This document shows positions 24,660 through 33,558 of a stretch of DNA of 36,168 nt, piece after piece (position 1 is the stretch's first letter; each line of letters opens with the position of its first letter). The stretch is from Acidobacteriota bacterium. Lineage in GTDB: Bacteria; Acidobacteriota; Vicinamibacteria; Vicinamibacterales; JACQTH01. The position numbers were made by a program, and so were the translations under genes. The DNA lies in contig JACOUA010000341.1 in NCBI GenBank assembly GCA_016178075.1, positions 1 to 36,168 on the forward strand, given 5' to 3'. The notes beneath the pieces were generated by a model. It ran no database searches, was not told the origin of the DNA, and saw only the letters and a list, made by a program, of their open reading frames with translations.

Positions 24660-24699
24660 GGTTAGGGCCCGGAAAGGAATAAAGGTGTCATCTTGGGCT

Positions 24700-29693: not shown

Positions 29694-31124
29694 GTGTCCA
29701 CCGTCCATTTCATCGGCATCTGCGGAACGGCGATGGCGACACTTGCCGCGCTCATGAGGCACAAGGGCTTCGACGTTCGAGGCTCGGACCAGAACATGTA
29801 TCCGCCGATGAGCGACTTTCTCGCGCGGGAAGGGATTGCGCCGTTCGCCGGGTATCGAGCCGAGCACATCGCCGCCGACATCGACCTGGTCGTCGTGGGC
29901 AACGCCATCTCGCGCGGCAACCCGGAGCTGGAAGAAGTCCTGGATCGCAGGATTCGGTATCTGTCGCTGCCGGAAGCTCTACGTGAGCACTTCCTGTGGG
30001 GGGCGCGTTCGATCGTGATCGCGGGCACGCACGGCAAGACCACCACGACAGCGCTCCTGGCGTGGCTCCTGACCGATGCGGGACTCGATCCGACCGTGTT
30101 CGTCGGCGGCATCGCCGCGAATCTCGGTGAGCAGGGGTCCAGCTACCGGGTCGGCGCCGGGCGAGATTTCGTCATCGAAGGTGACGAATACGACAGCGCC
30201 TACTTCGACAAGACCGCGAAATTCCTCAAATACCTTCCCGACATCGTCGTCGTGAACAACATCGAGTTCGATCACGCCGACATCTATCCAGATCTCGAGG
30301 CCGTTCGAGTCGCGTTTTGTCGTCTCGTGAACCTGGTCCCGCGAAGTGGCCTGCTCGTCGTTGGAGCGGACGATGCCGAGGCGTTGGGGCTGGGGACGGG
30401 AGCGCGCTGCCGTGTCGAGAGCGCGGGGCTTTCCACGGCGGCGACCTGGCACGCGTTCGCGGTCAACCCCGGCGCTGGCGGCATGTCGTTCAACGTGAGG
30501 AGGGAGGGGCAGCTCTTCGGATCGTTCGAGATTCCGCTGATGGGTCTGCACAATGTACGAAACGCGCTGGCCGCCATCGCGGTCGGGGCCGCCAGAGGTC
30601 TTGATGCGGAGACGCTGGCTCGCGGAATGCGCAAGTTCCGTGGCGTCAAGCGTCGTCTCGAAATCGTCGGGGAGGTGGGGGGCGTGACGGTGTATGACGA
30701 TTTCGCGCACCATCCTACCGCCGTGGCCGAAACGCTCGCGGCCCTTCGAGCCGGCACCGCCGGCTCGCGGATCTGGGCCGTCTTCGAGCCGCGCTCGGCC
30801 TCGTCCTGCCGCCGTGTGTTCCAACCGGCGTTCGCGGAGGCCTTCAGCGGCGCCGATCGCGTGATCATCGCCGCCGTGTTTCGATCGACGCTGCCGGAGG
30901 CCGAGCGGCTGTCGGCCGAGGAGCTGGTGGCGGATCTCCGCGCGCGCCGCTCGAATGCCCGGCACATCCCGGAGATCGACGACATCGTGGCCACAATCGC
31001 GCTCGAGCGTGAGCCCGGGGATCTCGTGGTGTTCATGTCGAACGGCGGCTTCGGCGGGATTCACCGCAGAATGCTCGCGGCGTTGGCCCAGCCAGGCGGC
31101 GCCTCGCATCATCCGCTGGTATGA
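29694..31124 (+). CDS. mpl: UDP-N-acetylmuramate:L-Ala-gamma-D-Glu-meso-DAP ligase Mpl
   Basis: Mpl attaches recycled tripeptide to UDP-MurNAc. The 476-residue protein starts with the Mpl-specific IGICGTAMATLAAL and GSDQNMYPPMS, followed by P-loop GTHGKTTTT (111-119), EGDEYDSAYFDKTAKFLKY, the adenine-site HNVRNALAAIA, and DDFAHHPTAV. These blocks separate Mpl from MurC. The GTG start at 29694 directly follows a word palindrome. The stop overlaps the murB ATG by 4 nt, so recycling and de novo precursor genes are translated together. Confidence 0.95.
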   Translation: MSTVHFIGICGTAMATLAALMRHKGFDVRGSDQNMYPPMSDFLAREGIAPFAGYRAEHIAADIDLVVVGNAISRGNPELEEVLDRRIRYLSLPEALREHFLWGARSIVIAGTHGKTTTTALLAWLLTDAGLDPTVFVGGIAANLGEQGSSYRVGAGRDFVIEGDEYDSAYFDKTAKFLKYLPDIVVVNNIEFDHADIYPDLEAVRVAFCRLVNLVPRSGLLVVGADDAEALGLGTGARCRVESAGLSTAATWHAFAVNPGAGGMSFNVRREGQLFGSFEIPLMGLHNVRNALAAIAVGAARGLDAETLARGMRKFRGVKRRLEIVGEVGGVTVYDDFAHHPTAVAETLAALRAGTAGSRIWAVFEPRSASSCRRVFQPAFAEAFSGADRVIIAAVFRSTLPEAERLSAEELVADLRARRSNARHIPEIDDIVATIALEREPGDLVVFMSNGGFGGIHRRMLAALAQPGGASHHPLV

Positions 31125-32116
31125 CCCCGTTCACCGAGCGCCTGCGCAACGGCTTCGGCCGAGAGCGCGTCCGCGAGCATGCCCCGCTCGCGCCCTTCAC
31201 GACCTTCAAGGTTGGAGGACCCGCGGAGTGGCTGCTGGAGGTGTCGAGCGCGGAGGAGCTGCTTCGCGCCTTCGAGCTCGCGCACGCCGCGGGGGTGGCG
31301 GTGACGATGCTGGGCGGCGGGTCGAACGTGCTCATCTCGGATCAAGGCGTCGCTGGCCTGGTCGTACGGACGCGCGGCGGGCGGATCGAGGAGGTCGGGC
31401 GCACAGGTGAGGCGGACGCCGCCGTGACGCTCGTACGCGCCGATGCCGGTGCGACGATCAACGCGCTGGTGCGGTGGACGATCATTCGCGGCTTCGCCGG
31501 ACTGGAGGCCTGGGCCGGCACCCCCGGCACCGTCGGCGGCGGTGTCTTCGGGAATGCGCACTATGGCGGGCACCTGCTGAGCGAGCTCGTCGACCATGTG
31601 CGACTCGTGTCGCGCGAGAGACACGTGCGGGATGTCAAAGCCTGCGACATGGAGTTCGCCTACGATCGCAGCCGCTTGCAGCGCACCGGAGAGATTCTGC
31701 TGTGGGTCGTGCTGCGTCTGAGGCGAGGTGCCGACTCCACGGCGCTTCGCGCGGTGGCGAGACAGTCGCTCGCTTATCGCAAGCGAACCCAGCCGCTCGA
31801 CACGAAGAGCGCCGGGTGCATCTTTCAGAATCCCGATCCGGCCAGCGACGCTCTCCCGCCGGGGATTCCCGCCTCCGCCGGCGCGCTCGTCGATCGCGCG
31901 GGGCTGAAGGGCCGGTCGGTCGGCGGCGCAAGCGTCTCCACCACGCACGGCAACTTCATCGTCAACAACGGCGGAGCCACGGCGACCGACATTCGCAAGC
32001 TCGTCAAGATCTGTCAGCAGGTGGTGCGGGACCTCTTCGGCCTGACGCTGCGCGAAGAGATCGTGTACCTTGGGGCGTTCGAGGAGTACCAAAAGCCCAG
32101 CGCCCGCAGGCGCTAG
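31121..32116 (+). CDS. murB: UDP-N-acetylenolpyruvoylglucosamine reductase MurB
   Basis: MurB reduces UDP-GlcNAc-enolpyruvate to UDP-MurNAc. The 331-residue FAD enzyme has TTFKVGGPAEW, the FAD loop GGGSNVLISD at 65-74, and GTPGTVGGGVFGNAHYGG. The proton-donor position in KSAGCIFQNP is Cys233 where E. coli has Ser229; Cys occurs in other MurB proteins. The TAG stop (32114-32116) is contributed by the left end of the inverted-repeat element that follows. Upstream overlap with mpl indicates one operon. Confidence 0.95.
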   Translation: MTPFTERLRNGFGRERVREHAPLAPFTTFKVGGPAEWLLEVSSAEELLRAFELAHAAGVAVTMLGGGSNVLISDQGVAGLVVRTRGGRIEEVGRTGEADAAVTLVRADAGATINALVRWTIIRGFAGLEAWAGTPGTVGGGVFGNAHYGGHLLSELVDHVRLVSRERHVRDVKACDMEFAYDRSRLQRTGEILLWVVLRLRRGADSTALRAVARQSLAYRKRTQPLDTKSAGCIFQNPDPASDALPPGIPASAGALVDRAGLKGRSVGGASVSTTHGNFIVNNGGATATDIRKLVKICQQVVRDLFGLTLREEIVYLGAFEEYQKPSARRR

Positions 32117-32277
32117 TGTAGTGTCCAAGAATTAGCTGGACAACCTGGCCGCCGATGCATCCCGCCCGACTGCGTTGCTCGTCGCTTACATACGCCCGGT
32201 ATGCGCGCTTCTCGCGCCTTGCCGGGCGGGCGCCTCGACGCCCAGCTTATCCAGCTAATTCTTGGACACTACACTAG
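32113..32277. mobile_element. MITE-like element with perfect 28-bp terminal inverted repeats
   Basis: Bases 32113-32140 are the exact reverse complement of 32250-32277. The 165-bp element has no coding capacity. Inside, CCCGCCCG (32161-32168) pairs with CGGGCGGG (32223-32230), and CATAC/GTATG (32189-32193 / 32199-32203) forms a short apical stem, so the RNA would fold into one long rod. Both ends are CTAG, which may be a duplicated target. It fills the murB-murA gap: its left end holds the murB stop and its right end is 6 nt before the murA ATG. A non-autonomous transposable element is the simplest reading; no transposase gene is in the window. Confidence 0.7.
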
Positions 32278-32283
32278 ATCTTC

Positions 32284-33558
32284 ATGGCCATCCTCAGGAT
32301 CGAAGGCGGCCGGCGACTGGGAGGGACGGTCGAAGTCGACGGCAACAAAAACTCGGCGTTGCCGCTCCTCGCGGCGTGCCTGCTCACCGACGAGGCATGC
32401 GTTCTGCACAATATGCCCCGCATTGGGGACGTGGAGGTGATGGCGCGCCTCCTCGAAGATCTCGGCGCCACGGTCGACGGCGTAGGAACCCGCACCGTCA
32501 CCGTCCGGTCCACCACGCTCGGCAAAGATGAGCCCGACCGCGCCCTGGTCGGACGCCTGCGCGGGTCGGTGCTCTTGATGGGACCGCTGCTTGCGCGCCG
32601 CGGTCGTGCCGCGCTCGCGCCGCCGGGCGGCGACTTTCCGGCGCGCCGCACGATCAGCACGCATCTCGAGGCGCTGCGCGCGCTCGGCGCGCACGAAACG
32701 AAGGCCGCCGGCCACGCCCTCGAAGCGCCGGACGGCTTGAAGCCGGCGTCGATCTTCCTTGAAGAGGCGTCCGTGACTGGAACCGAAACAGCGCTGTTGG
32801 CGGCGGCCGGGACGCCGGGGCTGACGAAGCTGCGCCACGCGGCAACCGAGCCGCACGTCGCCGATCTGTGCCAGTTCCTTGGGAACATGGGCGCGGAAAT
32901 CACCGGCACCGGCAGCCCCACGATCACGATCGAGGGACGGTCGCGTCTTCGGGGCGCGGAGTACACACTGCCGGGCGATTACATCGAAGCGGGGAGTTGG
33001 GGCGTCGTGGCGGCGGTGACCGGCGGGGAGGTCGAGGTGCGGGGCACGCGCGCGGAGGACATGGAGGTGATCGCCGCGACGTTGAGGCGGATGCAGGTCC
33101 GCTGTTCGTTCGACGCGAACCGGTTCCTTGTCGAGCCGTCCACGCCCGTCGCGGCGCGGCGTATCACGACCGGGCTCTGGCCTGCTTTTCCAAGCGACCT
33201 CGTGAGCCTGGTGACCGTCTTGGCGACCCAGGCGAGCGGCCAAACGCTGCTGCACGACTGGATGTACGAGCTGCGCCTCTTCGCGCTCGAACAGCTCAGC
33301 GCGATGAGAGCCGATCTCTTTCTCTGCGATCCCCACCGGATCATCGTCACCGGTCCGACCAAGCTCCGGGGGCGTCTGCTGGACAGCCGGGATCTGCGGT
33401 CGGGGATGGCGCTCATCGCCGCCGCGCTGGCCGCCGACGGGGAGAGCCGTATCGCGCCGGTCGAGACCGTCGAGCGCGGGTACGCGCGTCTCGTCGAGAA
33501 CCTGAAAAGGTTGGGCGCCCTCGTCGAGCGCGTGGACGACCGACGCCGTCTGAAGTAG
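32284..33558 (+). CDS. murA: UDP-N-acetylglucosamine 1-carboxyvinyltransferase MurA, Asp-type active site
   Basis: MurA transfers enolpyruvate from PEP to UDP-GlcNAc, the first committed step of peptidoglycan synthesis. The 424-residue EPSP-synthase-fold protein has VDGNKNSALPLLAA with the catalytic Lys, RGSVLLMGPLLARRG, FPSDL and VERGYARL. The mobile loop reads PPGGD, placing Asp117 where E. coli MurA has Cys115. Asp at this site is known in mycobacterial and chlamydial MurA and makes the enzyme insensitive to fosfomycin. No Shine-Dalgarno is visible, because the MITE-like element abuts the start. Confidence 0.92.
   Translation: MAILRIEGGRRLGGTVEVDGNKNSALPLLAACLLTDEACVLHNMPRIGDVEVMARLLEDLGATVDGVGTRTVTVRSTTLGKDEPDRALVGRLRGSVLLMGPLLARRGRAALAPPGGDFPARRTISTHLEALRALGAHETKAAGHALEAPDGLKPASIFLEEASVTGTETALLAAAGTPGLTKLRHAATEPHVADLCQFLGNMGAEITGTGSPTITIEGRSRLRGAEYTLPGDYIEAGSWGVVAAVTGGEVEVRGTRAEDMEVIAATLRRMQVRCSFDANRFLVEPSTPVAARRITTGLWPAFPSDLVSLVTVLATQASGQTLLHDWMYELRLFALEQLSAMRADLFLCDPHRIIVTGPTKLRGRLLDSRDLRSGMALIAAALAADGESRIAPVETVERGYARLVENLKRLGALVERVDDRRRLK

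Follow-up and report, generated by a model that had tools for sequence, protein, structure and literature searches.

An IS630-type MITE at the murB stop codon belongs to a palindromic superfamily with a conserved hairpin core and diverse ends

The window analyzed here is a stretch of 36,168 nucleotides from an Acidobacteriota assembly (G000, the source genome), and it contains an mpl-murB-murA cluster on the plus strand. As assigned with NCBIfam models, mpl, the murein peptide ligase gene at the upstream end of the cluster, occupies positions 29694–31124, murB (UDP-N-acetylmuramate dehydrogenase) 31121–32116 and murA (UDP-GlcNAc enolpyruvyl transferase) 32284–33558. Between murB and murA lies a 165-bp near-palindrome with CTAG at either end (32113–32277, no strand assigned), here named type A and recognized as a MITE by its palindromic form, its terminal repeats and its dispersed copies. 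The 28-bp terminal inverted repeats (32113–32140 on the plus strand and 32250–32277 on the minus strand) are identical throughout when the last 28 bases are reverse-complemented, and the arms keep pairing imperfectly further inward. TA target duplications are located at 32114–32115 and 32275–32276, and once these and the outer C and G of the target are removed, the element proper is 159 bp long (32116–32274, GTGTAG...CTACAC). Its interior holds a conserved hairpin core (32144–32247, plus strand, covariance model R1). The element is thus short, non-coding and bounded by terminal inverted repeats, as MITEs are. A first-pass annotation had described it exactly as placed here, with perfect 28-bp inverted ends and 6 nt to the murA start codon at 32284, and had expected the transcript to fold into a long rod; the computed RNA fold of -97.3 kcal/mol, against -51.8 ± 3.5 in dinucleotide shuffles (z = -13), bears this out. 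The window also contains a solo type B end, TTA followed by GGGCCCGGAAAGGAATAAAGGTGTCATCTTGGGC (24662–24699, plus strand), apparently the truncated relic of a sister MITE from the same superfamily.

The comparison of murB-murA gaps in relatives, as the first-pass annotation had advised, yielded both the empty site and the target duplication, which is TA. In G001, the only genome of the same genus that was compared (MurB 76% identical), the junction reads murB TGA-TTCGTC-ATG murA (GGACTGATTCGTCATGG), and the source sequence, when freed of the element and one TA, reads TAG-ATCTTC-ATG (GGCGCTAGATCTTCATGG) with a six-base gap as in G001. The insertion target is C-TA-G, and the TAG within this CTAG is the murB stop codon (32114–32116). 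Because TA was duplicated and the element begins with a G, the stop TAG was rebuilt upon insertion, with no base lost. The notion that the element supplies the murB stop is correct only for its last base, G32116; T and A are the target's own, and the codon is a regenerated one rather than a new one. Nor did the element replace the ribosome-binding region of murA, as had been supposed: the congener likewise has only the stop, 6 nt and ATG, so nothing was removed. Weak Shine-Dalgarno-like stretches are found upstream, GAGGA in the congener and CAGG in the source genome. The insertion pushed this stretch away from murA and did not delete it, so that only 6 nt now separate the murA start from the base of a long hairpin. 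A scan of the region detected neither a sigma70-like promoter nor a forward terminator, and any effect of the element on murA expression, or on fosfomycin- or wall-related regulation, is presumptive.

Four further near-full type A copies, 94–99% identical, lie at unrelated sites in the genome (contigs C1, C285, C265 and C219 of the source assembly), as does one hybrid copy in which only one end is of type A. Each of the five type A copies with both ends shows the arrangement C-TA...TA-G. Type A is thus a mobile MITE with multiple dispersed copies and empty sites, and the degree of identity among these copies, together with the empty site in the congener, agrees with the earlier view that the insertion is recent. 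Note that in the hybrid (L006, G000:C336:1-300) the other end is of the TWA type, TAA followed by GGGCCCGTCAAAGAATAACG. It sits about 80 bp from a contig end, a position at which misassembly is possible, and it is a possible intermediate of end exchange. Many contigs of the source assembly start or stop inside a core element (C12, C10, C52, C97, C112, C144, C288, C294, C365 and others), so that the element fragments the assembly and its copy number is a lower bound.

The end sequence TAGTGTAGTGTCCAAGAATTA was found in 60 contigs from Acidobacteria, Nitrospira, Verrucomicrobia, Deltaproteobacteria and Acidimicrobiia MAGs. Four complete elements of about 1.2 kb with type A-like ends (L086, L088, L103 and L113), hosted by Acidobacteria, Nitrospira and Verrucomicrobia MAGs (the last a Chthoniobacter), have frames for IS630 family transposases; the one that was scored matched NF033545 with 265 bits (7e-79), as well as PF13358. 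Their target is CTAG, in one case CTAG/CTAA. The left and right ends of these ISs are unlike, with ..CCAAGAATTA.. on the left vs ..CCARCAAATA.. on the right. The left and right arms of the MITE match the left end at 28–29 and 27–28 of 30 positions, respectively, and the right end at 24–26 of 30 (24–25 for the right arm). The left-end version is thus present at both sides of the murB-murA MITE, which is therefore not a simple internal deletion. With IS630-matching ends and a TA target duplication, type A has both hallmarks of an IS630-derived MITE, and we infer that it was mobilized in trans by a transposase of this family.

A transposase gene with the same terminal repeats, the donor called for by the first-pass annotation, does exist in other MAGs, but no copy of it was found in the source assembly, which is about 87% complete and has many contigs that end in such repeats. 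At that level of completeness, the IS630 sequences found in the source genome comprise one full copy, 37% identical and with different ends, and weaker fragments. This full copy (L170/L207, G000:C135:33106-34212) is an intact IS630 located in CTAG, with ends of the form C-TA-GTAACAATGTCCAGTTAGTTCTTTATG; it was considered as a donor and is ruled out by its ends and by the 37% identity. None of the 16 genomes with the donor IS630 end contained a core match, and donor and MITE were not seen together in one genome. Three short elements of about 130–145 bp from Acidobacteria and Nitrospira MAGs (L091, L115 and L123) have the same IS630-type ends as type A around unrelated interiors, without the core.

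The inner 100 bp or so of the element is found at 118 places in the source genome (model R1, E≤1e-6), where it is combined with about ten types of ends. Beyond this genome, BLAST detected the core in 29 of the 60 genomes from the order, and the model did so in 36 of the 297 from the phylum. It was also matched in 12 of 198 genomes of a different lineage, the phylum of G331, which had been reached via an IS-bearing contig titled Deltaproteobacteria; one of these 12 matches, L290, looks like chance on reading. Plasmids and viral contigs showed no core match, and an Rfam search gave only a match at chance level, outside the element. In the core alignment 95.5% of the cells are paired, 16 of 28 pairs have changes in both partners that preserve pairing, and covariation amounts to 0.267, compared with 0.090 ± 0.008 for shuffles; sliding the alignment gives no more than 0.068. 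Around the center of the core, stretches that are not complementary to each other are conserved as well (GCGTTGCTCGTCGC / GCTCCTCGCGCCTTGCC). The unpaired center (alignment A1, columns 35–50 and 68–84) contains near-direct repeats, GCTCGTCGCTC / GCTCCTCGCGC, that are conserved across genera and might be a binding site. As the interior is conserved and covarying and the ends are exchangeable, selection on the core itself is suggested, be it for replication, end pairing, a host factor or RNA processing.

With respect to their targets the copies fall into two classes. Exact 3-bp duplications are present in 26 of 34 complete copies of the TWA class (TTA, TAA and one TCA), and TA duplications in 22 of 24 complete copies of the CTAG class, 21 of them in CTAG. 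Two duplication lengths on one core imply at least two transposition systems. Some end types can be related to known IS families: ends of type I3 match an end near an IS630 gene in G018 at 22 of 27 positions, and those of type F2 have a 13/14 stretch in common with an IS5-family IS in the relative G032. The latter (L292, G032:C196) is an IS of about 850 bp that is located at CTAG, has F2-like ends and contains two overlapping ORFs in different frames. A DUF4096 (IS5) search of the source genome matched nothing, and for the main TWA types B–E no intact donor was found.

The core of type A is 90% identical to those of types B–E, which are of the TWA class, in its own genome, 83% to those of B–E in relatives, and 73–74% to those of types G and I, which like A belong to the CTAG class. 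Broadly, the majority of end types each have a core clade of their own. In trees, which rest on only about 100 sites, the six type A cores group together (support 97–99) and nest within the B–E cores; the single constraint tested for A vs B–E, which keeps A outside all B–E cores, is rejected by the AU test (p=0.014) and not by the SH test (p=0.08). Constraints that group all CTAG types are not rejected, and at this length types I and G stay unplaced. Judged from these core sequences, type A most likely descends from a B–E-type element that had both its ends replaced in the source lineage.

Each of the two target classes contains a stop codon that is regenerated on insertion, and we further studied the reading frames at the junctions. 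We considered 83 junctions at which a TAA or TAG triplet is flanked by 600 bp or more of sequence. They yielded 24 frames of at least 200 codons with GC3 of at least 0.70, 16 of which ended exactly at the junction triplet, vs 5 and 3 in the other two frames (binomial p=0.0009). These thresholds were picked while looking, and the excess is weaker at 100 codons (p=0.009) and 150 codons (p=0.003); it became clear once the flanks were lengthened beyond 150 bp and the GC3 filter was applied. For trxB (thioredoxin reductase), gyrB and a MacB-like permease (macB), profile alignments reach the C-terminal end of the protein at the junction. The copies thus seem to reside preferentially on natural stop codons, with an excess to which selection against insertions within genes contributes in part. 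Targets that coincide with a stop and regenerate it would explain how more than 100 hairpins can reside at the ends of genes, and even next to essential ones, and leave these genes unbroken.

Three other explanations have to be weighed against a re-ended mobile element. The most conventional one takes type A for an ordinary internal-deletion MITE, a deleted IS630 whose core is a remnant of the former IS interior, with no exchange of ends. The match of its ends to the IS630 family and the broad correspondence between most end types and core clades would fit. Such a deletion, however, would retain one left and one right end, while both ends here are copies of the left one, and the 0/16 result for genomes with the IS630 end places the core outside the interiors of those ISs. 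As the same core also bears ends with a different duplication length, and the core of type A nests among those of TWA types, we consider this origin improbable.

Still less credit can be given to a REP or REPIN moved by a RAYT, an HUH Y1 transposase, although palindromes tagged with CTAG or GTAG in inverted pairs, a large number of copies, terminal CTAG and conserved mispaired bubbles in the hairpin would all be at home there. HUH elements are not known to make target duplications, yet 48 of 58 complete copies are flanked by TA or 3-bp duplications, and the ends match IS630 and IS5 elements, both of the DDE type. The stability of the leader hairpin and the conservation of the core structure across genomes might finally point to a regulatory RNA or terminator that is fixed in the mpl-murB-murA operon and does not move at all. 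This reading, the least probable of the three, is already refuted by empty sites and dispersed copies: the element is absent from the congener and from every other relative in which the murB-murA junction was inspected, and near-identical copies reside at unrelated sites. The first-pass annotation had named such a fixed structure at the orthologous position as the outcome that would speak against mobility, and it is not what the relatives show. The Rfam search and the promoter and terminator scan likewise gave it no support.

We therefore favor, with a probability of about 85%, a non-autonomous MITE of the IS630/Tc1 type, a re-ended branch of a superfamily defined by its core, that was inserted at the murB stop. 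An IS630-family transposase that recognizes GTGTAGTGTCCAAGAATTA ends would have moved type A in trans into the CTAG holding the amber stop of murB, with duplication of TA; owing to the palindromic CTAG and the initial G of the element, the stop was regenerated and no base lost, and the insertion would be tolerable for this reason. Type A itself represents one lineage within a large superfamily of palindromic MITEs that have the conserved hairpin core of about 100 bp in common, and whose ends change over time and match different transposases, either of the IS630 kind (CTAG/TA) or TWA-duplicating, some of them IS5-like. It most likely originated from a TWA-type element of the lineage in which both ends were replaced by copies of the IS630 left end. 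The ends would probably have been exchanged by recombination in the core that the elements have in common, or by a template switch across it; one arm of the hairpin would then have been copied onto the other, so that the two ends became identical. At even odds we hold a broader proposal, in which the superfamily repeatedly swaps both terminal repeats on its conserved core (from TWA/IS5-like to IS630) and docks preferentially on stops that are restored by the duplication, and in which the rod-like hairpin may hold the murB stop beside the murA start and so spare translation coupling.

The usual classification of MITEs rests on their terminal repeats, and the interior is regarded as decayed filler. 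In the core superfamily it is the interior that is conserved and covarying, and the ends are the exchangeable part. This suggests that such parasites can outlive the loss of one transposase by borrowing the ends of another, and the core model provides a means of finding such elements across phyla. The element at murB is an IS630-type MITE; the core superfamily was previously unnamed, and its novelty lies in a core that is conserved phylum-wide while the ends change. In the open-access literature covered, we found no precedent for MITEs with a shared core and swapped ends or for docking on stop codons.

Among described elements, RUP of Streptococcus pneumoniae comes closest; it is a 107-bp MITE of IS630-Spn1 with a TA target, about 100 copies per genome and a proposed mobilization in trans (PMC2229807). 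Like type A, it is a small non-coding palindrome with IS630-type ends and a TA target in a genome with about 100 copies. As far as descriptions can be compared, RUP has one kind of end, whereas the core superfamily has about ten types and two kinds of duplication, on a GC-rich core that spans the phylum and beyond. The IS630 family ISs L086, L088, L103 and L113 (NF033545) share ends of about 30 bp and the CTAG target with the MITE, but differ in their length of 1.2 kb, their transposase frame, their unequal left and right ends and their lack of a core. REPINs, the REP doublets associated with RAYTs, are also non-autonomous, palindromic and present in many copies per genome, but the core superfamily has DDE-type ends and target duplications (PMC3116915). 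The Correia/NEMIS elements of Neisseria, whose hairpins are proposed substrates of RNase III near genes (PMC2229807), and ERIC are alike in being intergenic, TA-flanked hairpin MITEs; they are set apart by description rather than base by base, in that the descriptions consulted contain neither the core structure nor the exchange of ends that characterize the superfamily at the murB stop.
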